A stretch of 64,000 bases of DNA from Hygrocybe punicea (Eukaryota; Basidiomycota; Agaricomycetes; Agaricales; Hygrophoraceae): contig OY744473.1 of assembly GCA_963556145.1 (NCBI GenBank), forward strand, positions 2,976,001 through 3,040,000. The letters are read 5' to 3'. Of this stretch, positions 11,443-29,327 are shown piece after piece. Position 1 is the stretch's first letter. Every line of letters begins with the position of its first letter. The notes under the pieces are model-generated. The model saw only the letters and a list, made by a program, of their open reading frames with translations, was not told where the DNA came from and made no database searches. Made by a program: the position numbers and the translations under genes.

Positions 11443-12158
11443 ATGGACTTGGCAGTCGACACCCCACCAATTCCAGTCAAAAAACAGCACCCGGAAAGCC
11501 CCAAAATGGCCACAATGAGCCCATCCAACAAGGAGCACCACACATGTGCCCAATGCCCATTGGATATATTGTAGAGGAAGGAAAACGGGTCTGGTGCAAT
11601 GAGTGTTGCATATACAGTCCCAGGTATGCCCGTCCCCATCATTTCCGTGGTTGCCAAGCAGGAAAACGCGTCCGCACATGCCAACGTGAGGGTAGGACAC
11701 ATATTGACACGTCTGCCTCCATTTCTGTCTCGTTTCGCCCGCCATTTGCGCCTACGTACCTGCCATCATCCCCAGAGGCCAACCATGACACACTGTTGCC
11801 ATCTGTGCCCATGCCAGCCCCAGGAAAATGCGTCCATGCGTGTTTTGACGACCCCACCCCTGTTCCACTCTCCTTTCAGTCCCCTTCATCATCCATGCCC
11901 TCTCCCTTATCTCTAGCAACAAGCCACGCCATGCTGCTGTCATCCGCGCCTGCGCCATCCCTGGAAAAATGTGTCTGCATGCGCCAATGCAACAATAATG
12001 TGCATATCGACGCGTTGCAGCAGGTGCTGCTAGCCCTAGGACCCCGAGGACCCTTAGATAGTCTTTCCCTTTCCTGTTAGTAGCTTAGTCATCCATCTCA
12101 GGGTTTTCCCTTGCTTTCCCCTCCCCGCTGCGACTCCTTCTGAGTCTTCCCTCGAGAG
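11443..12158 (+). pseudogene. Zinc-finger/Pro-Ser-repeat protein of the LTR element, 5' part
   Basis: The only ORF of the outer LTR element; family not recognised. ATG at 11443 gives MDLAVDTPPIPVKKQHPE, then HHTCAQCPLDI. A one-base frame change near 11572 is needed to continue into VEEGKRVWCNECCIYSPRY, HFRGC and RVRTC, which together form a CxxC...CxxC...H...C metal-binding pattern. Pro/Ser-rich repeats of about 40 residues follow (PVPLSFQSPSSSMPSPLSL, then LLSSAPAPSLEKC). The frame is cut by a stop near 12078 and then by the hAT insertion at 12167. The repeat pattern resumes at 29328, so the two parts were one gene. Role unknown; it is not recognisable as Gag or Pol. Confidence 0.6.
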
Positions 12159-12166
12159 GTCTAGAG

Positions 12167-12668
12167 TAGTGTTGCCGAAGTTCAGTTCGGTCCAGTTCTG
12201 ACCCTTTTTGGTGGAACCGCGAACTGAACTTCGGGTCCAGTTTGGTGCATGGCCAAACCCGGACCCAGACAGCGTCAAACCGTCTCTCTGCGTTCAGTCT
12301 GGGTTCAGACGTGGTCTGAAACCCAGACCGAGGTGGGCTCACCCCGTCCGTTCTCCTTGCGAATGGCAGGCACATATCAATAGATACGGCGCTGCACTTC
12401 ACGAGGTAGATGGGTGCTCGGGAGCCCTCCGGTGTCCCCAAGGGATGTGGAGAGACGGGGGGTCTTGTCCCATGGTCCCTGCATGGCATTGCTGGTGCTG
12501 CTGCTGCCAACCGTTGTCCTCATCAGGATGGTGGTATGGTTGTGGTGGTGTTGCTGCCATGGCTGCTGCTGTCGCCATTGCTGCTGCCGCTGCTGCTGTT
12601 GTCACCGTTGTTGCTGCCGCTGTTGCTGCTGCTGCCGGCACTGCTGCTGTTGTTCTCTTCGGGTGCAT
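12167..12668. mobile_element. Non-autonomous hAT (family 1), first half of a split copy
   Basis: TAGTGTTGCCGAAGTTCAG ... is the reverse complement of the right end of the 7320-8614 element, followed by the same GCTGCT/GGTTGC repeat interior. It is preceded by gtctagag (12159-12166). The partner half ends at 29319 and is followed by gtctggag (29320-29327): an 8-bp duplication with one mismatch. The 16.2-kb composite transposon lies between the halves. Confidence 0.85.
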
Positions 12669-12682
12669 CAGGAAAAACACTA

Positions 12683-12860
12683 TAGCTCTGAGACACTCTT
12701 GGAGTGTGTCAGAGTGTGTTAGTGTGTGTCAGAGTGCTCAGAGCACCAGAGTTCTTAGAGTGACCTAGAACGGTCTGAAAGCACAGTGGCTGGCTATTTT
12801 GCATTGAGAGTGTTCTGGGACACTCTGAGGTACTCTGAGGAAGGTCCTCAGAGCATCATA
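12683..12860. repeat. Left subterminal repeats of the composite transposon
   Basis: Clustered short words ctctgag, gtgtcagagtg, cactctgag and cagagc in both orientations, mirrored by the right end at about 28796-28850. Such subterminal arrays are typical transposase-binding regions of CACTA/Plavaka-like elements. Confidence 0.6.
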
Positions 12861-13191
12861 AAGAGCTCTTAGACGTATATGTTTTGATTTATTGCTGTTC
12901 TACAGTGCTCTGAATTGCTCTGGTTATGTTCAAAATACTCCAAATAGCATTAAAAATATACATAAATGAGTGATAATAGCTGGTGTGAAATGCAAAAGCA
13001 ATGCAAAAGAAATGCAAAAGAAATGCAAAAGAAACACAAATGGGCCATTCAAGTTGACAGTAAAATGGAAATGGAGACGTAGACGTAGAGGGGTGGTGAA
13101 TAGACTGACAAGGTTATGAAATTGAGCCTGTAGCTGTAAAAGTCAATCAGACATCGATAGTTTATACAAAGAACAATAACTTGCATAGCGT
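12861..13191. other. Spacer with short tandem repeat
   Basis: AT-rich. It contains about four copies of an 11-mer (atgcaaaagaa) at about 12990-13035. No gene recognised. Confidence 0.5.
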
Positions 13192-15081
13192 CTACCTTGC
13201 AGTGGCAGACTGCTCCAGCTGGTCAAAATCAATGTCCATCAAGTCCATGTTTTCAATGGCATCATCGAGAATTGGAGCATTCTTGACATTGTTCCTAAAA
13301 GAGTATGGTCAGATCTATATGATTTCATAGTTTGAAACAAAGACGCTTGCTTCTTTGCAGTCCAGGTCGGTGACTTTGCCTTCAATGTATTCCATGTTGA
13401 ACGATGATGAGCATATCTATAAAAAGGGAGATATTAGACATGGACATAATGTCTATAAAATAAATCACCTTAAGCTTGCTGCTTCATGGCTGAATTGCAC
13501 ATTGAGGTGCGACCCGCTTGCCCACTCCATCAGTGCATTTTCAATCTGCCAACAGATGAAAATGTATTTGAGCACAGCATAAGTGAAGGAGACACACTGC
13601 AGTTACTACTAGGATAATGATTTCCTCACGGATCTTCTTCAGCTCCATCATTTTGCGGTAAGCTTGAATGTCGGCCTTGCCCTTTCCAAACCACTGATTC
13701 CTGATCATGTCACCGATGATTGCATGACTGAATGGCTCATTGTTGACAACCGTACGTTTCTGTTTCAACAATTCTAGGTTAGTATTGTATAGCAGGTTAT
13801 AGATACCTGGGCCATATACCATAACATCAACTTCACCACGTGCAAACTTGCATCCCTGTAAAAGCCAACGTGCTGCCTCCTCTATATCCGCCTTCGACAT
13901 CTGGCCAGGAATTCCAAAGTAGCCTGCAATACCAGTCTTCGCTTTTGCCTTCAGATCGCCACGTAGACCGGTGATCGCATAACCCACCTAAGATAAGATC
14001 AGCTCCATATAATAGCAGAAAACGACAAAATAAACTCAAACATATTCCATAAGATTGTCTTGAAGATCATCGTTATTCTGCACCCTGTCTAGAGTACTTT
14101 GAAAACTATCACTGTCCTTTGCAGTGTACTGAATGGACTCCAAGACAAACTTATCCTTATCATTGGGAAATGCATCAGACAATGCAATGCGCTCCCTTGC
14201 GGTAGATTTGCTTGCAGTAGCCAGACGAAAACTCCTAGGAGTAAAGTCATTCTTACTGAGCTTATCTCGTCGTCCTGACATGGTCGATGTAATGGATCCT
14301 GCGGCAACGGATGCAGAGCGACGAGTAGATTGCTTGCTCCTTTTAGTTGGCTTGATCCCGTCTTGATCCTGGATACTAATCTGTAACTTATTATCAGCTA
14401 GGCACCACTAATAATGAGGGGGAAAAAGTGCACACCCCATTTCCCAAATCATCATCCTTTGGACCATCATCTAAGTCATCCTCATTAGGTATATTGTCAT
14501 CAAGATGATCCTGGTTGCCTGGAAGCAGATTAAGTGAGCATCACAATTTGCTGTAGTGGTTAGTATAACAACTCACTATCATCACCATTGTCCATCTCTG
14601 GGACATCATCGAATATTGCATCCAGATCTTCTTCATCTTCATCTAAGATTACAGTCCTTTTACGCCTTTTGGAGGTGTTGTTGTTGCCATTGGAGGAATT
14701 GTCGGTGTTATCAGCCTCCTCAGCTGCCATCATCTCAGTGTTATGTTTACGTACAACTGCAGTGGTGGCCAATTAAAATAAAGTCTGAAATTAATATGGC
14801 TTATGTTCATCCTGCTGCTCCTGCAACGCAGCTGCTCTGTGGGCTTTTCTCTTGGCAGAAAGCTCCATCAATAGCTTCTCTTCAGCAGCAGACAGACCAC
14901 CAGTGGATAAGGAAGCAGGAGGTTCAATCTCAGAGCCACCTTGATTACCTTTGCTTTTGGGCTTTGATTTTGAACGAGTCTTTGAGGTGGGAGCTGAGGC
15001 TGTCACTGAGCTGGGCTTCTTCCCATTGGTTGAAGATGACCCCTTGGAAGTCCTAGAGGAGGTGCCACGTTTTTTTGCCAT
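13192..15081 (-). CDS. DUF6532-like protein, transposon cargo
   Basis: Start at 15081: MAKKRGTSSRTSKGSSS, a basic Ser/Lys-rich region, then an acidic nuclear-type linker (RKRTVILDEDEEDLDAIFDD, about 14580-14690). The folded core is spread over exons 14281-13355: STARERIALSDAFPNDKDKFV, YFGIPGQMSKADIEEAARWLL, KRTVVNNEPFSHAIIGDMI, RNQWFGKGKADIQAYRK, IENALMEWASGSHL. It ends DFDQLEQSATAR with the stop at 13192. The core resembles the Agaricomycete-specific domain DUF6532, whose function is unknown. Introns have normal GT-AG ends and no disabling mutation was seen. A chromatin or DNA-associated role would be speculation. Confidence 0.65.
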
Positions 15082-15184
15082 GACAAGATACAAAGGAAGA
15101 CGGTGGTGGAAAGAGCAAAGAATGAATATCAACGATTACGTGGCATATATAAACAAACAAACAAGTCTCTGTTAGCACTATATT

Positions 15185-18100
15185 CTATGACATGTATCCA
15201 TGGCCCATCCAACCATTCCTATCCTCAGCCCACATCTTCCCAGCATGATCAGAATGTAGAACAATAGATGCTCTAATACCCATATAGTGGAGATTAAAGT
15301 GAGTAATCCTACCGGAGGGGAAAAGTGCCATGTCTCCATTTTGCAAACATAACACTAAGCCTGGCTCCAGCAAGCACAGCTCTCCACCTACATGTTCACC
15401 TATGACAAGAACTAGGCATGTGCGTAGGTCCTTGATGTCACAGTGGCAGCGTGTGACAACATTGATATTGAGAACAAACCCGCCAAATGGATGAACAGGT
15501 GAAGCCACCTTCCCTGGGAGAACATCAGCAAATATGGCCAAGTCTTCATAAACATCAGGAAGCCGTTCAAGTAACTGAAATGATTACATTAGCATATATC
15601 AATAACATAAAACAATGTAAACCTGGCATGTACCTTTTCTTCAACCCACAGGAAGAACTCCTCAAACGAAATGCAAAGGTTCTCATACTCCCTGGTGTGT
15701 TCCATGAGTTCCTTTGAAACACGTGGGACTAGTTGATAATAGTTGGTCTTGGAGCATCCTTTGCATCTAAGGAAGTGAGGATGCACATCAGGCGGAGCAC
15801 CTTCTCCCTAGTTGGAGGTGTTAGTTCCTTTATATAATTGGGGCCCTGCAAAACAGGTACTACTCACTCGTGTTCCGTTCCGCATGTACATGTCGCAGTG
15901 GATTGCCAGAAATTTGTGCCCTTTTGGAGTGGCAGAACTATCGGTATAAACGAGAGAAGAGCCACTTTCAACTAATAAAGCATTTCGTATGTTGCGTTCC
16001 AATGAGGAACGCATCTGCAGCGGCATATCTCCCCAGACAAAAACATTTACTGAGCCATCCAAGCAATTAAGTCGGACCTCTTTCCTGTAAGGAAATGTAC
16101 ATTAGTTAGTAGACTGGGAATTCTCAAGAACACACAGACTGATCAAAAATTTTCTCATCCATAACCACATAACTACCTTCCTTCTTTCCGCCGTCGTCAT
16201 CATAGAGCTCCGATACCTAACAAAAGAACATCAAATATGCAGCTCTAATATCAGATTCAAAACACCATACCATGCGGGCAAAGTCAATACTGTCCGATGG
16301 CACGCGTGCATGGCTTGCATAAGCCCTTTGCATATCCATCCATTCACTCCTCTCATCATCATCACATGGATAAGGTATCTTCCTATTCTGCTCAGCATCT
16401 ATGTCAAATCAGGTGTCAAGTACCATGTAGTCCCGCCGTTTGCGATCGGGAAACCGAAATGTATCAGTAGGAGGAGGGGCTGGCATGTCATTGTCGCTGT
16501 CAAGCGGCCTATCGTGCTGCAGTTGAGCATCGTCACAATTCTGGATATCACTGTCACTCCCAGATTCTGAGAACGGTGATGGCGGACATGTGGACATATC
16601 AGAACAGCTTGATGACGCATGGGACATGAGAAGATTCTGATTGATAACATGAAGGGACACAGGGTCATCTGCTGGTTCCAGAGGCTCCAGGCACTCTGCC
16701 CAGATCGGCCGGTTTCTAGTCAATGACACAAAAGAACTGGTGACCTTAATATACAAATCGCAATAAAAATGAAGCACTTACTGCCTTCTAATGCTGTCAA
16801 AAAACTTGTCTGAATCGTCCAAGTTGCTACAGTCTATGTCTCCAGTTAAACCTAAGTCCTTGAGAAGTGAACGGGAGAACATGGTCGACATCGTCAAGGG
16901 AATCTGACGACGTAGGTAGTCAATCAACGGAATCAGGCGACCGATTATATCCTGTCCCATGTCCGTATCTAAGATAACAGTTAGAGCAAGAATCACTGAG
17001 ATCAAGAAGACTCACCTGGGTTAGGCCAGCGAAGTGCGTTACATACAGCTGAAATCTCATCAACATTCATACAGCCAATCTGAACTCGTTTTTTTTTGGC
17101 CGCTATAACCATCAGCAAGTAGATAGTTCCTATAATATGATGTTAGAGACCAACAACAGTGAGATAGATAGGGTGTGCCTCATACCTGCCCCAGCGATCG
17201 AGGCATATTTCATGCCGATTCCGACCCATTTCCAAAATGTAGATGGCTGAGGCGCACCATCCATGCCATCTATGCAGTCACGAAAGACAGCATCCACTGA
17301 TTTTAGGCCATTGATCTGCATAACGCTGCCGAAATTCCTTTGAGAACGGTAAAAGATAGCAACAGGACGTACCTGTCTGCCTTTGCCGCCAGCTGCAGCA
17401 TATTAATCATCGTCACAAATTCTAACCCTGCAGCTATTTCAAGGCTCTGTTTGCATCAAACCACAAGTGACTGCAAGGAGTTTGTCACGAAAGCGCCGTT
17501 CTCATCGATCCATTTCTGCCCCTTCACCATCGTCTTCATCGACTCAATCCACCTTTGGGTTAGTGGATGCAAAATATTGCTCAAAGCACCTTGTGCTAAG
17601 TTTGAGACAGCCTCAGCAGCCCGCTCTCCTACGGCGCAAGCAGGCTCATCCATAACCTCCCAACCTTCACCTTCGCTTTCGTCAGCCTTGGCCTGCTTTT
17701 TCTTCCCTTTCCTTGGTTTTGCCTTTTTCCTATGCTTCACACCTCCGCGTTTGCAATGGCCTGCTACAGCCATGCCCACCCCACCACCGGCCGCTAGTGA
17801 TGGTACAGTTTGGTTCTGAACCTGGGTTCGAACCTGAACCGAACCTTAGGTTCAGTTCAAGGTTCAGTCAAGGACAGAATCTTGTGAACCTGGTTCGAAC
17901 TGGTTCGAACCTGAACCTAATCTTTCACATATTAGTCTAATTTCTGCTGAGTAGAGACTTAGTTTTGGTCCAACTATTTACTGACTTGAAATTTCAGCAC
18001 CATTAATAACAGAATCTAGATTAGTTAGAGTTTATACGGTTGCAATGAGTGCTTCTGTAACATGAATATTTGCAAACTTAAATATATTTTAAAATGTAAA

Positions 18101-19171
18101 GTTGAAATTCAGCCTAGGATGCCATGTTGTGTGATTCAGTTATACTGATTGCAAGTTAAAATACAGCAAAACATTTGCAATGACCATCTGAACAGTTGTC
18201 CAGGATATTTCATGCTTACTGTGCTTCAGACACATCTAACACAAGATTCTATTGATTCATTCACAGTGAACGTGGACACAGTACATGTAATTGAAGAGTC
18301 AAACCATTAGCACAACAACAATGTAGAGTGGTAGGAAATAAAGAAAAAATTTGGATTGAGAAAATTGATTAGCTAGTATACTTGTATTTTCACAGGTTCA
18401 GTTCAGGTTCAGCCTGGCCTGAACCTGAACTGAACCTATCTGAACCTGAACCAAAGGTTCAGTTCAAGGTTCAGCATATGAGCTGAACCGAACCTCAGGT
18501 TCAGTTCAAGGTTCAGAATTTTTTGGCCTGAACCGAACCGAACTGAACCTGACCATCACTACCCGCTGCAGCCATGCCCACCCCACCATAAGGATCCAGG
18601 TCCCGCCGGTCCCCAACTCGTTTCAACCGTCGTAGCGCAGATCGTTCCAATTGGTTTTGTGATGCAGGTAAGATGGCTTCAACATCATTTGGGTTTGAGT
18701 TCACGACGTTTGCATTCACGTTCAAGTTCGTGAGATTAGCAATGTCCCCGCTGAGTCTCACAGGGTTGGCATCAAGGTTTCTGGGGAAGGAAGTGTTCGG
18801 CTGGTGCCAGTTCAAGTCAAGAAGGAATGACTCAGTTGAATGAATGTACGCACCATATCTCCAGCAGTTTGGGCCTGAGCCCCACGATCAATGTCTTGCT
18901 GACTGAGATGAGAGCTACATGCAGATCCAGGAATTAAAGAGCTCGGTGGTGTTTCAAGTTGAGGAGTAGCAAGGGGAGCCAGATACGCCAGGGAGGGAGT
19001 AGCAAGGGGAGCCGGATATGCAAGGGAGGGAGTTGCGGATGCTCATGAGTGAGACTCTATTTTCTTATAAAGGGTTAAAATGTCAAGTGGAAGACTGCCA
19101 GCGCACTGATCCAGGTAGTTAAGCAGGCACAGAGCCTCCTTTTGTGAGAGATCCAGCAGAATACGCTGCAT
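15185..19171 (-). CDS. TET/JBP-type 2-oxoglutarate/Fe(II) dioxygenase (5' part disrupted)
   Basis: Predicted to oxidise methylpyrimidines in DNA. Near the C-terminus (15541-15185) the catalytic fold reads HCDIKD (HxD iron ligands), EHVGGELCLLEPG, NGDMALFPSG, THFNLHYMGIRASIVLHSD (distal His and 2-oxoglutarate-binding Arg). Upstream exons give CKGCSKTNYYQLVP, GHKFLAIHCDMYMRNGT, a Ser/Asp-rich linker and a helical region (DAVFRDCIDGMDGAPQPSTFWKW at about 17190-17300; this and similar segments recur in agaric homologues). The N-terminal basic region starts MAVAGHCKRGG at 17773. The coding frame once extended to 19171 (MQRILLDLSQKEALCLLNYL) but is now cut by an in-frame TGA (19043-19045) and a hAT at 17795-18561. 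The ATG at 17773 or 17779 would still give a protein with the full catalytic domain. Confidence 0.75.
17795..18561. mobile_element. Non-autonomous hAT in the TET/JBP 5' exon
   Basis: TAGTGATGGTACAGTTTGG at the left and ...CTGACCATCACTA at the right are inverted repeats; the interior ends are GGTTCAGGTTCGAACC-rich. Flanks ccggccgc and cccgctgc match at 6 of 8 positions, consistent with an old 8-bp duplication. The flanking exon reads GGVGMAAAG on one side and GGVGMAVAG on the other, so the insertion lies in coding sequence. Length is 767 bp; with the duplication it shifts the frame. Confidence 0.75.
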
Positions 19172-19213
19172 GAAGCGTGTTGAAGTACCGGACGGTTCCG
19201 GTTAGTTGTCCAA

Positions 19214-19253
19214 AAAAGGTGTCCATGTTATCGCTGTAACATAGACACCTTTT
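19214..19253. repeat. 17-bp inverted repeat (hairpin)
   Basis: AAAAGGTGTCCATGTTA and TAACATAGACACCTTTT around a 6-nt loop, one mismatch. It lies about 40 bases upstream of the original dioxygenase start. Confidence 0.75.
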
Positions 19254-19576
19254 CGGGAAACAACGTACCTGCATTTTTATGCTGCTGGTGCATACATACC
19301 CTTTTCATGGGATAAAGTTTCTTTCTTTTGTTCTAATCGTTTCAGTAATTAAAGCTTTGTCTACCATCCCCCTTCAACGAGCTGGGTCTCCCACTAGCAC
19401 AGCACGCTGATGTCCGATTAGATTCCTCATCATGTCCGACCTATTGTCCCCTTTTCAAGCTATGGAGGCTAGTTTGCTTTCATTATTCTCTATCGTTTTA
19501 TGCTGCTGGTGCGTACATACCCATTTGATGGGGTAAAGTTTCCTAATTGTTTCAGTAATACAGATTAGAAAACCTA

Positions 19577-19677
19577 TCCTCGAACTCTCGTTATCCTCTC
19601 TTGTTATCCTCGAACCCTTGTTATCCTTGAACTCTCGTTATCCTCGAACTCTCGTTATCCTCGAACTCTCGTTATCA
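19577..19677. repeat. 18-bp tandem minisatellite
   Basis: About five imperfect copies of ctcgaactctcgttatc(c). Confidence 0.8.
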
Positions 19678-20370
19678 CCTATTTTTTTCCCCTCCTGGTA
19701 GCCAACACAATACAAGCCTCGGGGACTGCGATGAGCCTACGTTGGGTTATTTTGCTGCCTCCGTGACTCACGGCCCTGGCATGCAGGCGCAATCAAACAG
19801 ACAGGCAATGTTGCCAATGCCATGTGGTATGTCTGGTCTGTTTCAAGTTAGAAAACCCCAAAAACCAACAAAAGGTCGTTCGTCATCACCCTTCACCTTT
19901 TCAACCTTCTTTTTCTTCACTTTCCAACAACAAAGCTGGGTCTTGTAGCAACACTTTTCTTTGGCTGGGCTTTTGTCGCCACTATCATCATCTTAGGTCC
20001 TGCGGCGATCCGTTGACCCTTGCCCGCTCGGGGGACCGCCGCTCCATAAACTGAGGTTTTTTTCATTTTGACTTTTTTGTGAGTGCCCCATTATCGTGTT
20101 CGTTCATATCTATATCTGACACGCTACACTACATCCTAGGAATTTCCCCCTGCTGGGTCAGGATTTGTGCTCAGTTTTCGCTGTAACATTACGTTCGCTA
20201 ACAGCCGCCGCTTGCATCTCCGATTTGTGGCAAAGGGCAGGGGTGGTATTCAAGCTACATAGATTGACGGCACACTTCAGTTTATCCTATCAGTCATCCC
20301 ATAAATAATTGAAAGGACAACTTCAGGAGAGCGTGATCTGAGTCATGATCAATCCGTTACCCGCAACATA

Positions 20371-22225
20371 ATGACAACTCTACAGACCTTCATCCCTGCC
20401 ATGCGCTTTCCTCTACCCCCTGAACATGAATTCAGAAAGACCCCCACATCAACCTCCACAGCGCCGTACAATCCCGGTATCCCGCAGCCGAATCAGGAAG
20501 GTCGTCCAGCTTTCATATTTCATGATCAATCCTTGGCGACACGCATGGTGGAATCCCTTGGAATCTACCTTCAAACTGCACCAGGCCAACATCTTGAACC
20601 TTCCATGATTCTCATTCAAACTATTGCTAGTCTGGGTATGTCCCTCAGGAATTTTCCTCTGGGCCACGAACCTACAACTAGTAACTTCTTCAGTCAAGCC
20701 TTCATCCCGATATGCCACGCTGTCGAAGCTGTGGATGCAAATCAGACACATCCAGAGGCCATCATTCAGTACACAGCTTATAATCAGACACCAGATGCTG
20801 TCTACCGTCCTTGTCAGGATGCTCCTCCCCAGCTCCACGTTGAGTTCAAGAGTTGGTCTGCGTTCTCATATCACGCTGAGAATATATTACACCTGGGCCA
20901 AAATTCTACCATTTTAGAGCTGGGTCCCACTGAAACAGGACATCGATTGATTATCTTCAAGGTGCTTGGGTCTCAATCTTGTATTGCTCCTCGGCATTCA
21001 TCATCACCATATCATTATATAGATTGGCATATCTATGCTGTCAGGAGCAACTAAGATCCCATATGCAGTTCTATTTGGTGGAGATCATTATATGCTCTTC
21101 ACACTTTGCCCAATCCCGGGGACCAAGCTGCATGGCCTCATTTGCTCCGACATTCTTTCCACCCTCAACTCCACACTGCCCTTTATGCCTATCATGGTTT
21201 TCTGCCTTTTGCATGCAGGCAACGTCAAGCCTCCGCAACACCTTGAAATCCCAGCCATTGACGTGCGTACGCCATTGTCCCGAACACGGTTGGCAGCGAA
21301 ACTGGCCACAAAGAATAGCCCTCAGGATGCTGGTTCTAATACGCTTTCTGCTGTACCCTCGACAACATTTTCCAGTGGAAGCATACTCTCCAAGGTCAGC
21401 TGCTTCTGTTTCTCAGCGTCTTCTAATTCTGAACACCTTTAGTCGGAAACTTTGCAGCTGACATTCGATCTGGAGCGCTTCAATCTAGCCATCTACAAGC
21501 TGAGCCGCCAGGAAGTGGCAGATCCTCCATGCCAAACTGAGCTCAGTTCATGTACTTTTGACTCCAGCGTTGCAGTTCTTTGGTTCCAAGCCATTGTCCC
21601 AGCCATTGTCCACTGTGTGGGAATTATATCCACTTTTCTGCAGTCACTTCTGAGGCATCTAAAAGACCCACCATGCTGCGAACTATGTATGACGACGTTT
21701 CTGGGGAGTGGGTCTGTTGGGAATGTGTTCAGAGGGCACTACGGCGACGTGCTAACAGATGACATTGTTGCAAAAGTTGCTATGCAAGAGCCGTCACGGG
21801 CACTTCTACGCCACGAAGCCAAAATGTATGCGACCCTCTCAGCACTGCAGGGCACTGCAATACCCATAGTGTATGGCCTATTTATTGGCAAAAATGTTAA
21901 CGTGCTCGTTATGCGTCACGCAGGGGAAGCTATCTCCTCATTTTCCGAGCTTTCGATCTGCCAATGGTACATGGTTTCTATTCTGTTGGGTGGACATATT
22001 ATTGATGTTGTTCTCCCCATTTGGACCATGATACAGACCATTCATACCGCCGGCGTCAGCCATCAGGACTTACGGCCTGACAATATTAGTTTATCAACAA
22101 CAGGCGGTGTTCAAATACTCGACTTCTCACATGCTATTCTCCACGACTGCATGGGCATTAGAGAATGCACTGAGCTTCAGACAGCGAGGCAGGTGTTGGA
22201 CATTGGACATTCTCAATTGTTGTGA
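20371..22225 (+). CDS. Protein-kinase-like protein, transposon cargo
   Basis: Exon 1 starts MTTLQTFIPAMRFPLPPE. An intron (20962-21023) joins HRLIIFK to IGISMLSGATKIPYAVLF, and a second (about 21394-21442) joins SGSILSK to SETLQLTFDLERF. The C-terminal half has kinase-fold landmarks: FLGSGSVGNVF (Gly-rich loop), DIVAKVAM (Lys), LLRHEAKMY (helix-C Glu), HTAGVSHQDLRPDNISL (catalytic loop HxDLxxxN) and ILDFSHA (DFG position altered to DFS). Another short intron may lie at about 21970-22032. The N-terminal 430 residues are not recognised. Many agaric kinase-like proteins of this type are of unknown function. The gene is inside the composite transposon and looks intact. Confidence 0.7.
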
Positions 22226-22419
22226 TGTTCGCTGTTGCGATTCCACATTAGGTATACATGTTATCCCTGTTCAACCTTTTGTAGCTTGTTGGTTTTCTGA
22301 CTCCACCTTTTATCTGTCTAGTTCTCTTGTAGCATGACAGGCTATTAGTCTCTAACGTCGTATGCTGTCCTTATTGTCCGTAATCAGTTCTTGGGGCACG
22401 TTGGAGTAGTGGGACCTGG

Positions 22420-22433
22420 CAGTCACGTGACTG
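22420..22433. repeat. 14-bp perfect palindrome in TRIM LTR
   Basis: CAGTCACGTGACTG centred on the E-box CACGTG; repeated in the right LTR. It could serve as a bHLH binding site (inference). Confidence 0.7.
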
Positions 22434-22535
22434 GGTTCCCACGGTTGACCTAGTTAGTAGCCTTCCTGATGTAGTAGAGAGACCGATTCCTATCCTATCC
22501 AGTCGACTTCCACCTCGAGTCCTGCGTGAGCCCCC

Positions 22536-22559
22536 GGAGAGGTACCTCGGTACCTCTCC
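22536..22559. repeat. 11-bp inverted repeat at LTR 3' end
   Basis: GGAGAGGTACC / GGTACCTCTCC around a 2-nt loop, directly before the LTR terminus; present in both LTRs. Confidence 0.75.
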
Positions 22560-25507
22560 ATCGTGGTGATGAGAGTGTTTTCGACTCACTGCTTTCTTTT
22601 TCTGGACTTTCTCCTCTTTTTGCCTTTCTTTGCTGGATTTTCTCGCGAGACGACTCTTTTCGGCCTCACCACCCCCTGCTGCGCGACGGCGGATTTTCTC
22701 TTCATTCACAGCCGTACATCAATCGCGCTACCCCCTGGCACTCTCGCTCAGTCCACCAGGGCCCCGCGTCGACCATCGTTGACCCAGAGACGCGGACTCG
22801 ACCCTTTTCGAGCACCCAAAAGCCCCAGGCCGCGTCACCCGCGTCCACGCCCGGTTTTTTCTTCTCAGACCCAGGACGGCCTCTCAAGCCTTCCTTGGAC
22901 GTCTTACGGCCCCCGTTCTGCCCCACGTCGTCCATTTTTGACGCCCAATGGCCACCCGCGTACAGCCGCGTCACCACCTTTCGACCCCCCATATTTTAGC
23001 ATTCCCCGGCCCTACACGTATCCATCTCGGTCCCTACATCCACGCTCGATGACCCGGTGCTTACGTCCTGCCCAGAAGAACCCCCCACCGCGCTTCGTTG
23101 CCCCAAACGAAGCCGTCCCGCCCTTTTGGTCACCCCACGGATCTGCCACGTCACCACTTTTAGACCCCCGTTTCTCGTCACCCCCACCCCTACACGGACT
23201 CATTCGACTCCCGGCATCATCGTTCCACCGGCCAGGACCCCCCGTTCCCCTTCGTTGCACCAAACGAACCCCCACCGTCACCTCCAGACACCCCAGCCCC
23301 GCGCCACGTCACCATCGCGTGGCTCCGTTCCGCCAACGTAGCCGGCCCCAGGTCGACTCACGACACTCGCGGCCCACCCGTTCACCATCCCGGAGCACCC
23401 CACCTGCCTCCAATACCACGAATGGACCGTGCCCACCGCCCCCAGACCCCCACCGCGTTCCGCCACGTCACCACCCCCCGGCCGGTTTCTTGCACCATGC
23501 CCGGCCCCACGAGCCCTCGTTCAGCTCCCCGTGGCCCCGTTCTCGACCGTGGTGACTACCAAGGACAACCCAACGGCACCATGTACCCCATGCCGACCCA
23601 ACGAACCGCCGCGATCCCTTCGCGTGATACGCCTACCCCCTTCGCGTCGAGATACTATGCCCTCGTTAGTACAACCCTATGCCCTATCATTTATTATAGC
23701 TTTTATCACAGTCTCGTCCCCATTCCCCCCCACCTCTGGATGTCGATTAAAGTCTACCTACGAGCCGTCACTACACTTGTTCATACACCTGTTCACCTAG
23801 TTCCACCAACACCGTTACGTTTTCGATCACCAGAACTTGCACGCTGCACTGAGTACTTGCCAGAGCAATTCGAGCGATTTTGGATCTTGCGTCGTAAGCC
23901 CTAACCCTCGCGAGGAAGGCATTCGGAGAGTTTGAGTTTGAGAGAGGAGTTCTATAGAGTCTGGTCATCTACCGCCCCCTGCACGAGGACGACTTCCCGC
24001 TTCACGATATAAGGCCCTGGCCTTGAGTCAAGGCTTTCTGAGGGACTGGGAGTTGTGGCTTTAGAGTTTTTTGGTCAGTTTCGTTTGTTTTGTGTTCTTT
24101 TCTGTAGCAGTTGGCGACGAGGGCGTCGCCATGAGGAAAAGGGGCACTTGGAGTAGTGGGACCTGGCAGTCACGTGACTGGGTTCCCACGGTTGACCTAG
24201 TTAGTAGCCTTCCTGATGTAGTAGAGAGACCGATTCTTATCCTATCCAGTCGACTTCCACCTCGAGTCCTGCGTGAGCCCCCGGAGAGGTACCTCGGTAC
24301 CTCTCCAACGTGCACATCATCTCATAATCTGATCTTTCCTAACTGAAGGTCGCGACCCACAAAGCCTGAACCTCCTGGATCTCAAGCTACAACATCTATC
24401 CAGTATCTGCATTACCATGGATGTTCTGGACGACCTTGCATGCCCTGTTTGTAATAGGTCCTTCAAGACCAAGAGAGGCTGCACATCTCATCTATGAACT
24501 GCACGTACATACTCCTGGTATCGTCGTGGCAAGTTGGCAGAACTTGCACCTTTAGATTTAGAAGGAGAGGGTGGGGACATGCAGGTTATTGATGATGAGG
24601 GGCTAGTGAGAGAAGGTGAATTGGATGGAATGGATGTGGATGAAGATCCGCAAGGCATTATGGATGATCGAGGAAGACGATGCCAATCTTTTTGACTTCA
24701 TTCCCATGGTTTCCACACTGCCTACAACCAACGATGATGAGCTTGGAGAAGCAGGGCCAGGACCATCCACTCTTGCTGCAGCTGCTAGACACATGCAGCA
24801 CAGGGTTCTGGACGACGTGGATGATAATAGGGTGGAGGATGTGTACGACAATGCTGCTAAGGTGATAAGAATGAATGAAAATCTGCATGAGCGATGGAGG
24901 AAGCAGTTTGATGGACACCGTGATAGTGACAGCGATGACCTGATGGGGGACCAGATTGGCGGTGAATCATTCTATCCTTTTGCCTCAGAGCTCGACTGGC
25001 GTGTTGCCAATTGGGTAATCAAGGACAGCCCAGGGAACAAGGCATTTGACAGACTTCTCTCAATTCCTGGTGTATGTTTTCTGACTTTCTGAAGAATATG
25101 ACACATCTGATTTGCATGTCTAAGGTCAAGGATAAGCTAGGGCTTTCATTTGGAAATACAAGGGCGCTACATCAGATTGTGGACGATATTCCTGAATGGG
25201 CAGGAAGGTGGACAACGAAATGCCTCTCCTTCAAAGATCGCCCTGGCAAGAAGCATATCATCAGGTTCAGGAGTGTGCTAGAGGCTATAAAGTGTCTTTG
25301 GGGCGATCCAACTCTATCAAAATATATGGTTTACCAGCCGAAGAAAGTGTTTTCCGATTCTAATTGCGACAACAGGGTCTACTCTGAGATGTGGACAGGT
25401 TCATGGTGGCATGTAGTTCAGGTACACTAGCCATGATCCTCAACCATACATTATCTTTCTGATAGAATTGTAGAACCGCCTCCCAGTGGGCTCCACACTG
25501 GCACCTG

Positions 25508-26582
25508 TAGGGTATAGCACGGGTTCGGGTAAACCCGCGGTTTTTGGGCCGCGGGTTTCTCGGGTACGGGTACGGTGTCCCAATTTGGCAACCCGTGCAC
25601 TACCACACACCCTTACCCGCGGTAGACGGGTATCCACGGGTTAGCACAGAGGGCCCCAATGGGCCCCACAGGTAAGTTTTTTTTTACTTTTAATTCATTT
25701 ATCTAACATATCTAATAACTAAGTTATACCCAAACCGCCGCCACCACCACCACTACCACCACCAACCAACAACAACAACAACAACAACACGGCGATGAAG
25801 GGAAACGGCTGGGAGGGTGGTGCGTCCACTTACCAGCACAGGTACATGCCCCGATTCTTTCACCACTGACATCGGCTAACCCCCTGCCTTCGAGTCCACA
25901 CCTCGCAAACGACGTTGACGCGTCAGTCAATGCGTCAACGCGTGTTCGCGAGGTCCCCAGCATGAAAACACGCATGAAGACTTCGCGAAAGCACGGTGAC
26001 GCGTCAACATCGTTAATGAAGTCGCCAGCACCAAACTACGAACAAAGACCATGCGAAGACAAACGAAGACCTCGCGAAGACAAATGAAGACCTCACGAAG
26101 ACAAACGAAGACCTCGCGAAGATGAACGAAGACCTCACGAAGACACAATGGCCCCACAGATGCCTCATACTCCAACGGCACCCCAGAACCCGCCGCGAGT
26201 GCCCCCACAGACCTCAAACTAATCACCTCGCGAAAACGGGCTGGCGCATCAACTGATGCGCAGACGTTGTTCGCGAGGTATCTGGCCCGTGAAACGACGG
26301 TGGTGGAGCAGGGAGGATGGCAGTGGGACAAGACGACGGAACCAGCCCAGCCCAGCCCCACAAATGCGAACCGTCGCGTCAATTGACGTGTACGTTTCAT
26401 TTGTGGGCTTGAGGAGCTCGCTGCCGCTGTCGTCGACACTACCCGCATGGCCACACGGGCAACCACCACACCCGCGTCCGACCGCGGGTAATGCAGACCC
26501 GCACCCGTCACGGGTACGGTGTCTGCGGGTACGGGTACGGTGTCCGGCCTGGCAACCCGCGGGTCACCCGTGCTACACCCTA
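25508..26582. mobile_element. Non-autonomous hAT (family 3) inside the Plavaka transposase
   Basis: TAGGGTATAGCACGGGT at the left and its counterpart ACCCGTGCTACACCCTA at the right, with an identical 8-bp duplication ggcacctg (25500-25507, 26583-26590). Removing element plus one duplication restores the reading frame ...STLAP|VIIATDK. The interior has CGGGTACGGTGTCC subterminal words, a splice-donor-like cag|GTAAGT (25672) and a short tandem repeat. No transposase. Confidence 0.92.
26040..26145. repeat. About 21-bp tandem repeat in hAT
   Basis: About five copies of gaagacctcgcgaagacaaac with minor variation. Confidence 0.75.
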
Positions 26583-28599
26583 GGCACCTGTGATTATTGC
26601 AACTGACAAGACTCAACTTATGCAGTTCACTGGAGGCAAATCTGCTTATCCTGTCTATCTGACATTGGGAAATATACCCAAAGCCATTCGTCATAAACCC
26701 TCGCAGCATGCATGTGTTCTAATTGGTTACCTGTTGGTGGACAAAATTTGTCGTGACCAGTTAACCCAGCAGGAGCATAGAGCGCGCAATCAACGATTGT
26801 TCCACGAGTCCATGCGAACGATTCTGGCTCCTTTGATGGATGCAGGGAAGAATGGTGTTGAGATGATGGGCGGCGAGGGCTTTGTAAGGAAGGTATACCC
26901 AATCCTGGCATGCTATGTCGCCGACTACCCAGAACAATGCCTTGTATCTTGCTCTAAGTATGGGACATGCCCTAAATGCCAGTGCCCTTCCGACAAGCTT
27001 CAGGATCCTGGTCCATTCGCCCACAGGACAGGTCAGTGGACGTTGGGTGTCGTAGATAAGGCAAAGGAGACATCAACGACAAAATCACAGTTCCACAAGT
27101 ATTGCATGGACAGGGGGGTATCTGGGAGTGTGTACGCTCCATTCTGGGCAGGGTTTCCACACACCGACATTCATCTTGCTATCACTCCTGACGTTCTTCA
27201 TCAACTCTACCAGGGTGTTTTCAAACATCTCACAAACTGGTGTAAACGGACCATAGGACCTAACGAACTGGACTGCCATATACGTTGTCTCCCACCTGCG
27301 TATGGATTGCGTCATTTCAAAAATGGTATATCTGCACTCTCCCAAATATCTGGCACAGAGAGGAAAAACATGGCAAAGATTCTCCTAGGCTGTCTTATCG
27401 GTGTCATGCCCCAGAAAGCTATCATTGCATGCCGTTCTCTTCTCAATTTCATTTACCTTGCCCAATACAGCACCCATGACAACATTACCCTTGATTACAT
27501 GCAAGATGCCTTAGATGCCTTTCATCGTCACAAATCATACTTCGTCGAGACAGGCATACGCCAGGATCTTAATATCCCCAAATTCCATTGCCTCATCCAC
27601 TACATCCAGTCCATCAAGTATCTTGGCACATCTGACAATTATAACACAGAAATGTTCAAACGTCTCCACATTGATTTCGCAAAGGAGGGGTGGCGGGCAT
27701 CAAACCAACGTGACGAGTTTCCCCAGATGATAAAATGGCTTTCGCGTCAAGAGAAGATGTTTACTTTCCAAAATTACATTTCCTGGAAAGAAAACGAACG
27801 TATTGCTGACAATCCACCATCCAAGTCACTTTCATGCAATGTGGCTGGAAAAGCAATCTCACTTCCTAAATATCTGACTCAGCCTCGACGTTTAATTTCT
27901 GATATCGAAAAACAACATTCAGCTCCTGGACTTTCTACTGCTCTCAAGGACTATCTAAATCATCTCGCACCCCACCCAGCACCTTCTCGGATCACTGCAT
28001 TGTATACCCTACCATTCCAGAGGCTTGATGTCTACCATACGTTCAAATTTCATCCTCCCAGTCTTGAAGACAGTGAGGAAGAATGTGACGTCCTCAAAGC
28101 TGCTCCTGCAATGAAGAACAGGCCTAGTCGATTTGACACTGCTGTCATCCTGCACACAGATGATGCAGAATCCACCGGCCTTGAAGGTCTGCCCCCATTT
28201 CTACCACATTGACTTCTGTTGACCACGAAAATGCTAGGAACAAGGATAGGACGTCTCCGAGTCGTTTTCACACTTCCCTCATCATTAGATTATGGCCTTG
28301 GACCATCACCATCATTTTGGCCCCGGATACCTTTGGCGTATATTGAATGGTACACGAGGACGAAGCCTGCTGCAGAAAAAAACCACAACATGTACTCTAT
28401 CAAGAGGTCTTACCGTACTGATGGAAGTCCTGCTGGTTCTATCATTCCATTGACCAGCATACATCAAAGTTGCATGTTAATGCCTACTTTTGGACGGTGT
28501 GTAGAAAGAACATGGACCACTCATGATGTTCTAGATAAATGTTCAACATTCTTTGTTAATAACTGGCATAACATGTATGCATACAAGACTATATGGTAG

Positions 28600-28900
28600 C
28601 AATAGTATTAGAATGTTGTAATTTCCAGCAGATGGTGAGACAACAGTGGGGCCACTGGCATTGCAAACAGCTAAAGTAGATAAATACATTGTGTGGCATA
28701 ATATACTCCATAAGACGTTAAACAATCCTAATCAGTATGCCTCCAAGCACCTGGCATATGTTTATTTAGTATTTCTAGGTCAAGCGTGATTCTGAACTTC
28801 TAAGATGCTCTGAGAAGCTCTAAGATGCTCTGTGGAGCTCTGTGACACTCCCTGGTGACCCTGGGAAATTTGGGATTTCCCAGGACCCCATGGGACCAGA
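28600..28900. other. Right end of the composite transposon
   Basis: Non-coding 3' flank of the transposase followed by subterminal AGAGCNTCT repeats (about 28796-28850) and the right TIR (28901-28913). It contains a palindrome-rich stretch gggaaatttgggatttccc (28863-28881). Confidence 0.55.
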
Positions 28901-28913
28901 AGTGTTTTTCCTG

Positions 28914-29319
28914 ATGAACAACGCAAGGCCAATGAACACGACACAATGTTGCGTTCATGAACACAGGTAAGTCTCATAAATTTTCTTAACTTTACTAATA
29001 TTATCTGCCACAGGCAACTTGACCATGACTCTTGCGGTGTTGGTGAAGAAAACCTACGTGTAATGGTCACATGATACTGTTTACCACGAAAAAGTAAATA
29101 AAGCAATACAAAAAACAAATGAAATAAATACCTTAAAAATATCCGCATTCACGGTTTGGACGTGGTTTGGAGCCGTTCAGGAAATCCAGCAGGCCTTGAA
29201 ACCCGGAACTGAACCTGCAGTCCGGTTCAGCACTTGGCTGAACTTAGACTGAACCTAGGGTTCAGTTCGGGGTTTGAATCGGGTTCGGCTAGGTTCGGAA
29301 CTGAACTACGGCAACACTA
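28914..29319. mobile_element. Non-autonomous hAT (family 1), second half of split copy
   Basis: Carries the 47-nt intron-like cassette (28967-29013) and ends GAACTACGGCAACACTA, the reverse complement of the left end of the 7320 element. It is followed by gtctggag. Part of the interior (about 28914-29035) is inverted relative to the 7320 copy, probably through its own palindrome aatgaacgcgacacaatgtc. Confidence 0.8.
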
Positions 29320-29327
29320 GTCTGGAG

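Follow-up and report, generated by a model that had tools for sequence, protein, structure and literature searches.

Transposons carrying TET/JBP dioxygenase genes have been surveyed by Kojima (2025, PMC12730594), whose main text proposes escape from silencing for such elements and recognizes 11 TET carrier lineages, Tc1/mariner not being among them. According to that text, TET-carrying PlavakaB elements with CATCA..TGATG ends are found in Agaricus bisporus and Gymnopus confluens, and all TET-positive IS3EU families place the TET gene between the transposase and an alpha-kinase. Further, AG-type TETs are described there as showing no transfer between transposon superfamilies, while TET exchange between superfamilies is reported for rust transposons and suggested for Agaricus bisporus. 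The present analysis concerns a stretch of 64,000 nucleotides from the mushroom Hygrocybe punicea (contig OY744473.1, positions 2,976,001 to 3,040,000; hereafter the window), which contains a PlavakaB-type element bearing, in addition to its transposase, genes for a kinase-like protein, a TET/JBP-like dioxygenase and a DUF6532 protein. Comparison of copies across the genome shows that these four genes constitute one mobile, selected Plavaka unit.

The original prediction, made from the sequence of the window, had suggested that a Plavaka carrier of this kind may be undescribed. This has to be narrowed, as TET-positive PlavakaB elements are already published (PMC12730594); the part concerning the accompanying genes stands, in that the main text of that paper mentions neither DUF6532 nor mariner or Tc1, and the only kinases in it are the IS3EU alpha-kinases. 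No other description of the gene combination was found in the literature searched, supplements excluded. What is new is a dioxygenase that by its sequence marks fits neither the AG nor the PE type, and the presence of the kinase-TET pair also in Tc1/mariner-type elements.

A recurrent four-gene Plavaka unit

Pfam scans on single reading frames of the window, combined with comparison of copies, delimit the element and its genes as follows:

12666..28916, no strand: whole Plavaka (PlavakaB-type) element, 16.25 kb, of which later insertions make up 3.7 kb
12666..12681, + strand: left terminal inverted repeat (TIR), CATCAGGAAAAACACT, from copy comparison
13192..15081, - strand: DUF6532 gene (PF20149, 54.8 bits, cutoff 24), gene ends judged by eye
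14320-14039, 13987-13823, 13771-13595 and 13545-13468, - strand: conserved exon blocks of the DUF6532 gene, from sister-copy comparison
15182..17845, - strand: conserved part of the gene for a TET/JBP-like 2-oxoglutarate (2OG)-Fe(II) dioxygenase, catalytic exon at 15185-15580, two in-frame stops
20371..22225, + strand: kinase-like gene, Pkinase domain plus an N-terminal region of about 200 amino acids, conserved blocks
24416..28212, + strand: Plavaka transposase gene, DDE domain PF18759, zinc-finger-like N-terminus judged by eye, weak DUF6830 C-terminus; interrupted, with one stop
28901..28916, - strand: right TIR, from copy comparison

Searches of the genome to which the window belongs (42 contigs totalling 92.2 Mb) with the window transposase, dioxygenase, DUF6532 and kinase exons gave 85, 58, 31 and 74 matches, from which 17, 2, 1 and 18 second fragments of counted loci were removed to leave 68, 56, 30 and 56 tabulated rows; 80 of 536 candidates were scored for the transposase, and its counts are lower bounds. 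All three cargo genes lie within 30 kb in 26 of the 30 transposase loci with an identity of at least 68%, the other four having the kinase only (three loci) or no cargo gene (one, a fragment). No cargo gene of any kind occurs within 30 kb of the less similar Plavaka loci (0 of the 38 scored), the random chance of a dioxygenase row within this distance being 0.036. Conversely, three of the 30 DUF6532 rows are away from such a transposase, and two of these adjoin a dioxygenase.

Two families make up these 30 loci: A, with 12 loci at 91-100% identity in the tabulated row, and B, with 18 at 73-78%, both counts again being lower bounds. Their transposases are about 75% identical at the amino acid level, and among the transposase rows scored the two families are mutually nearest (73-78% as against at most 49% for others). 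Four A and two B copies were read, and all six have the same gene order, with the transposase and kinase on one strand and the TET and DUF6532 genes placed divergently on the opposite strand. Both B copies hold all four genes, in gene-bearing pieces 63-75% identical in DNA to A, as does a 12.5-kb family-A copy (C39:4292959-4305469) which is free of three insertions present in the window; the window element is collinear with this sister copy, in segments 95-98% identical.

The predicted termini are exact at both positions, CAGGAAAAACACT lying at 12669-12681 (+) and 28901-28913 (-), and copy comparison lengthens them by CAT/ATG to CATCAGGAAAAACACT...AGTGTTTTTCCTGATG. Genome-wide there are 144 exact copies of CAGGAAAAACACT, 72 per strand, versus one of the reversed control pattern; most of the 100 sites listed among these pair convergently, and the pairs form two size classes, one short (about 1.5-2.4 kb), the other long (about 7-32 kb). 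In an end survey of 29 elements (nine of family A including the window copy, nine of family B and 11 short), a 2-bp target-site duplication (TSD) stands outside the ends in 25 (A 8/9, B 8/9, short 9/11; one of the 25 is 3 bp), which by chance, at 1 in 16 per element, has a p of about 1e-26. CATCA..TGATG is present at both ends in 28 of the 29, the remaining one having CCTCA on one side.

The same-TIR copies examined are four-gene elements, partial remnants or the short form, of which the one copy read is 2 kb, non-coding, and common to A or B over the last 35-200 bp only. Transposase-only elements sharing these TIRs were also considered and rejected, the short copy read being non-coding and the remnants keeping the kinase or nothing, and the kinase-TET pair found elsewhere is inside a second mobile element. 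The single four-gene unit of the original prediction is borne out by the recurrence of the set in 26 of 30 loci, by the TSDs and by purifying selection (see below): further copies with the same ends and gene set exist in both families, and the copies examined do not show the contrary pattern of transposase-only elements with the same TIRs and cargo genes elsewhere. Two arrangements of these ends may be recorded: at C2:1157409-1161537 three short same-TIR elements follow each other consecutively with a spacing of about 160 bp, and at C34:5429051-5456881 a complete family-A element has next to it an additional dioxygenase-DUF6532 end in tandem, bearing a TIR of its own.

Turning to the proteins, the transposase matches PF18759 with 276.6 bits on 26584-28209 (cutoff 26.3) and DUF6830 below cutoff at its C-terminus, its N-terminal blocks having been located by sister-copy comparison. 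The kinase-like protein matches Pkinase PF00069 with 32.4 bits (cutoff 31.7) and contains HQDLRPDN and DFS, in which HxD, N and DFx are presumably the protein-kinase catalytic residues. Its N-terminal open reading frame (ORF) of about 200 amino acids matched no Pfam family. For the kinase, a search of 2505 candidates from outside the genome, using a query joined approximately from blocks, found no homologue at E 1e-3. The dioxygenase gene probably has one or more additional N-terminal exons, upstream to about 19200; in the sister copy C39:4292959-4305469 it has nine exons with GT-AG introns encoding 690 amino acids, the N-terminus being uncertain. The profile check proposed for the four proteins thus places PF18759, DUF6532 and Pkinase over their cutoffs, but Tet_JBP below (17.6 versus 34.9 bits).

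Selection on the four genes

Exon blocks conserved in a pair of copies, one from each family, were used to obtain ratios of nonsynonymous to synonymous substitution (dN/dS) by the NG86 method. They amount to 0.103 for the transposase (532 codons), 0.105 for the dioxygenase (624), 0.208 for the kinase (429) and 0.124 for DUF6532 (232), to be read with the reservation that the choice of conserved blocks lowers dN/dS and that dS, at 1.35-2.6, is close to saturation. On these alignments all four genes show the mark of purifying selection between the families, and the kinase-TET pair of the mariner-type elements described below gives 0.16-0.20. A ratio of 0.52 from two N-terminal transposase blocks (144 codons) is disregarded, one block having been read in the wrong frame. 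Within families the ratio runs from 0.24 to 2.5, matching expectation for decaying copies. Family B has one TGA in nearly every DUF6532 row and one TAG in most catalytic TET rows; reading two B copies for DUF6532 and one for TET places the TGA in a non-conserved stretch between blocks and the TAG directly before the exon, and because they fall outside the conserved blocks or exon both are taken as intron letters. Further stops occur in single rows, including some TAG in family A.

Two explanations that would dissolve the unit can be weighed against these data. The cargo genes might be functionless passengers captured a single time, a view to which the stops in many individual rows and the within-family ratios of up to 2.5 lend some color. 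However, between families all four genes have dN/dS of 0.10-0.21, the cargo being similar to the transposase, the same set is kept in 26 of 30 loci, and the kinase-TET pair is also kept, at 0.16-0.20, in a second superfamily; judged by the selection signal the passenger explanation appears largely refuted, and it is regarded as highly improbable. Alternatively, independent transposons nested in each other might only resemble one unit, as could be imagined from the window copy with its three nested insertions and its missing TSD. This is rejected as scarcely credible, given that the insertions in the window are not the cargo genes and that all four genes are present in the insertion-free 12.5-kb copy and the two diverged B copies.

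A second carrier of the kinase-TET pair

Thirteen dioxygenase rows adjoin a different transposase (DDE_3), and a fourteenth, C35:3258673, was scored as Plavaka solely through a Plavaka copy 20 kb off. The elements concerned (group C; e.g., C8:4021360-4031254 and C2:2951538-2961484) are 9.9 kb long with 418-bp inverted ends. Two ORFs of their transposase match DDE_3 PF13358 with 29.4 and 35.0 bits (cutoff 28.6), which we take to mark it as of the Tc1/mariner/IS630 type. TA is seen at both ends in 7/7 paired copies; T precedes it in 25 of 27 ends, and it could be terminal repeat. This transposase has at least 16 loci at 91% identity or more, accounting for 17 of the 150 rows listed. The kinase and dioxygenase genes of these elements have the same head-to-head arrangement as in Plavaka; two further ORFs of 239 and 270 amino acids without a Pfam match are also present, and none of the 30 tabulated DUF6532 rows is nearby.

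In both carriers the common block is collinear, starting where the kinase ends and finishing where the dioxygenase ends, with its limits at or near the 3' ends of both genes. Identity of the pieces is 68-79% for B versus the mariner-type elements and 65-66% for A versus the latter. Of the three comparisons, dN is smallest for B versus mariner-type in 500/500 bootstraps for both genes, and in trees the B and C cassettes are sisters, with supports of 100/99 for the dioxygenase and 86/93 for the kinase, the outgroups of the latter being long-branched. The sister relationship of the B and C cassettes, the collinear block and the A and B transposases being nearest to each other together indicate that the kinase-TET pair moved between superfamilies. 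The trees show an exchange of the head-to-head block between Plavaka and Tc1/mariner-type elements, most simply from a B-like Plavaka to a mariner-type element.

Affinities of the dioxygenase

The Plavaka-borne dioxygenase displays an HxDxxD..H..R pattern, and the Fe(II) triad HxD..H with the distal arginine is kept in A, B, C, a further group of TET-like genes (D) and relatives from Mycena, these last, from M. galericulata and M. vulgaris, being the only three outside relatives found at E 1e-3. Group D (41-46% identity) is in another repeat, at C2:3730066, C33:3444484, C1:5337373, C7:3098712, C33:3726666 and C6:7971341, in which no transposase was identified. An aspartate at +5 of the HxD is invariant in the aligned A, B, C, D and Mycena sequences; this position corresponds to hTET2 Asn1387, NgTet1 Asp234 and CMD1 Asp350 and bonds N4 of 5-methylcytosine (5mC), as given in the text of PMC11040006.

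The match to Tet_JBP PF12851 is 17.6 bits (E 0.0024) for the window exon, 20.4 bits (E 3.3e-4) for the spliced sister-copy protein and up to 29.9 bits for family B, with a cutoff of 34.9. A profile of the subfamily searched against the PDB has CMD1 as its best match, with the Fe-ligand and +5 residues aligned, at a non-significant E of 0.11, and a PKHD-type hydroxylase among its lower-ranked, likewise non-significant matches; in another search TET2 was matched at E 0.7, also not significant. Queries consisting of just the catalytic exon or just the spliced TET returned nothing informative from the PDB.

AG-type TETs are marked by Gly or Ser at +5 and Asp at +11 (CcTet Gly331 and Asp337), according to the main text of Kojima 2025 (PMC12730594). 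Assignment to the AG type was rejected as the enzyme has Asp, not Gly, at +5 and is gapped in the segment of CcTet Asp337 (WYD), and assignment to the PE type as every aligned copy has HxD, not HxE. By these sequence marks the Plavaka-borne dioxygenase fits neither type. Genome-wide, 96 matches to Tet_JBP exceed the cutoff and there are at least 186 to the KDZ transposase, and many Kyakuja-type TET elements are probably present; some of these matches adjoin (e.g., C34:1978816 and C34:1981584), and one other TET frame finds CcTet in the PDB with an E of 1.2e-22. A TET-like gene at 1448-5511 of C8:5642000-5651999 (68% identity, with stops) lies some 1.5 kb away from an ORF for a hAT transposase and is possibly in a further carrier, or there by chance.

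CpG decay and the state of the window copy

Across four aligned family-A copies (12,411 columns), the window copy has private C-to-T changes at 10.4% of CpG sites and at 0.84% of other C; for the remaining three the CpG rates are 3.7, 4.9 and 4.7% and the rates at other C 0.20, 0.16 and 0.33%, respectively. The same holds for three mariner-type copies (3.2-6.0% at CpG versus 0.11-0.28% at other C). Observed/expected ratios for CpG lie at 0.61-0.68 for six Plavaka elements and at 0.59 for a mariner-type element; in the rest of the window, eleven unannotated 4-kb blocks range from 0.44 to 1.26, seven of them at 0.9 or above. Six of the six nonsense changes resolved among the four copies are C-to-T at CpG, and DNA_methylase has five matches over cutoff in the genome, at four loci. 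These footprints make it very likely that element copies have been CpG-methylated.

The window copy is interrupted by three insertions, all absent in the sister copy:

17795-18556, no strand: 762-bp insertion in the TET gene region
22402-24307, no strand: 1.9-kb insertion resembling a terminal-repeat retrotransposon in miniature (TRIM) or long terminal repeat (LTR) element, with 165-bp direct terminal repeats and a 4-bp ACGT flank duplication
25509-26571, no strand: 1.06-kb insertion in the transposase gene, hAT-like by eye, with inverted ends and an 8-bp flank duplication, GGCACCTG

Two stops fall in the TET frame and one in the N-terminal part of the transposase; comparison with sister copies shows each to be a C-to-T change at a CpG. 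With three nested insertions, one of them in the transposase, and stops in both TET and transposase, the window copy is dead, which contradicts the description of its cargo genes as apparently functional. At 11,508 non-CpG sites it has 116 private differences as against 19, 21 and 26 in three sister copies and is, by this count, older than these. It is also the sole one of the nine surveyed family-A copies without a 2-bp TSD, and since its flanks are 79-84% identical to the inside of a short element, it sits in a related repeat. Just beyond the Plavaka ends, 29-bp inverted arms (90%) span 12160-29326 of the window.

A proposed anti-silencing role

Taken together, the window element is probably best explained as a dead PlavakaB copy of a four-gene unit in which the dioxygenase counters silencing by CpG methylation. 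In this scheme the transposase would mobilize the element, and the dioxygenase would oxidize 5mC on the DNA of the element, opposing its silencing. The kinase, conserved head to head with the dioxygenase, may work in the same step, e.g., on a silencing factor. The DUF6532 protein, assigned to the Plavaka part because none was found beside the mariner elements, would serve that part, perhaps by binding DNA or as an accessory to transposition. Such an anti-silencing role is plausible, and in the sequence the active-site residues, the selection, the CpG decay and the matches to host methyltransferases lend indirect support to self-demethylation. More tentatively, the kinase-TET block could be an exchangeable anti-silencing cassette shared by PlavakaB and Tc1/mariner-type elements, with a TET subtype akin to CMD1 and NgTet1 modifying or removing 5mC and the kinase disabling a silencing or chromatin partner.

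Several observations weigh against these proposals. No match of the subfamily reaches the Pfam Tet_JBP cutoff (17.6-29.9 versus 34.9 bits), profile-profile comparison with the genome's other TETs is weak (probability 65% and E 6e-5 in local mode, 14% in global mode), and the structure prediction for a Mycena relative, with a mean confidence (pLDDT) of 29.5, is unusable. A short catalytic tree with D and Mycena as outgroups leaves the A-B-C order unsettled. Finally, the TET-carrying copies are themselves strongly CpG-decayed, and any protection by the dioxygenase must therefore be incomplete.

Some of these points bear on the alternative that the enzyme is a 2OG dioxygenase other than a 5mC eraser, acting on another base or on a protein and benefiting the element by means other than demethylation. 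Its sub-cutoff Tet_JBP scores, the restriction of relatives at E 1e-3 to three from two Mycena species and the PKHD-type hydroxylase among the lower-ranked, non-significant PDB matches are in keeping with this. Nevertheless, the best-placed dioxygenase matches are TET-family 5mC enzymes (CMD1, E 0.11, and TET2, E 0.7, neither significant), and the invariant aspartate occupies the 5mC-contact position; an enzyme of another kind is accordingly considered rather unlikely. The exchange between superfamilies can likewise be questioned, by supposing an old host kinase-TET pair captured separately by each of the Plavaka families A and B and by the lineage of the mariner elements. Among the 13 dioxygenase rows near neither transposase, C8:5647121, C3:6876222 and C3:6201493 are not assignable as remnants, nor are six more at 41-46% identity, and C8:5647121 joins A in one tree (95/98). 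Yet the only kinase-TET pair within 30 kb that lacks either transposase, among the tabulated rows, is a truncated mariner copy (C34:127272). Moreover, the B and C TETs are sisters at 100/99, and the collinear block ends near the gene ends and is closer between B and C (68-79%) than between A and C (65-66%). Separate capture is therefore improbable, and transfer of the block between the superfamilies is preferred.

On this preferred account a whole two-gene block has been exchanged within a mushroom genome, with a Tc1/mariner-type carrier outside the 11 lineages in the main text of Kojima 2025 (PMC12730594). More generally, a transposon keeps a gene resembling a methylation eraser, a kinase and DUF6532 together under selection, and DUF6532 gains a concrete context. 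With CpG decay present in these copies as well, an arms race in which the host methylates and the element carries an eraser becomes open to direct testing.

Comparison with known systems

TET-positive PlavakaB elements, as presented in the main text of PMC12730594, share with the window family the Plavaka transposase, the CATCA..TGATG termini, a TSD of 2 bp (or 3 bp) and an internal TET/JBP gene; they differ in that the published elements carry a PE-type TET with HxE, whereas the window family has HxD. Kyakuja/Zisupton elements with AG-type TETs (relatives of CcTet) are alike in being Agaricomycete DNA transposons with a TET of the HxD kind, but they have another transposase, and the Plavaka-borne enzyme is without an equivalent of CcTet Asp337 and has Asp for Gly at +5. 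In this last respect it resembles Chlamydomonas CMD1 and NgTet1, which have Asp at +5 of the HxD (text of PMC11040006). With CMD1 it also has a GGE motif in common, although the overall similarity is not significant (E 0.11). The IS3EU elements of the rust families, according to the main text of PMC12730594, likewise have a TET beside a kinase gene within a DNA transposon, with a different transposase superfamily and gene order and an alpha-kinase in place of the Pkinase of the window element. This independent parallel hints at a functional coupling of TET and kinase; if the cassette proposal holds, the TET-kinase pairing would represent a recurrent counter-defence design of transposons.

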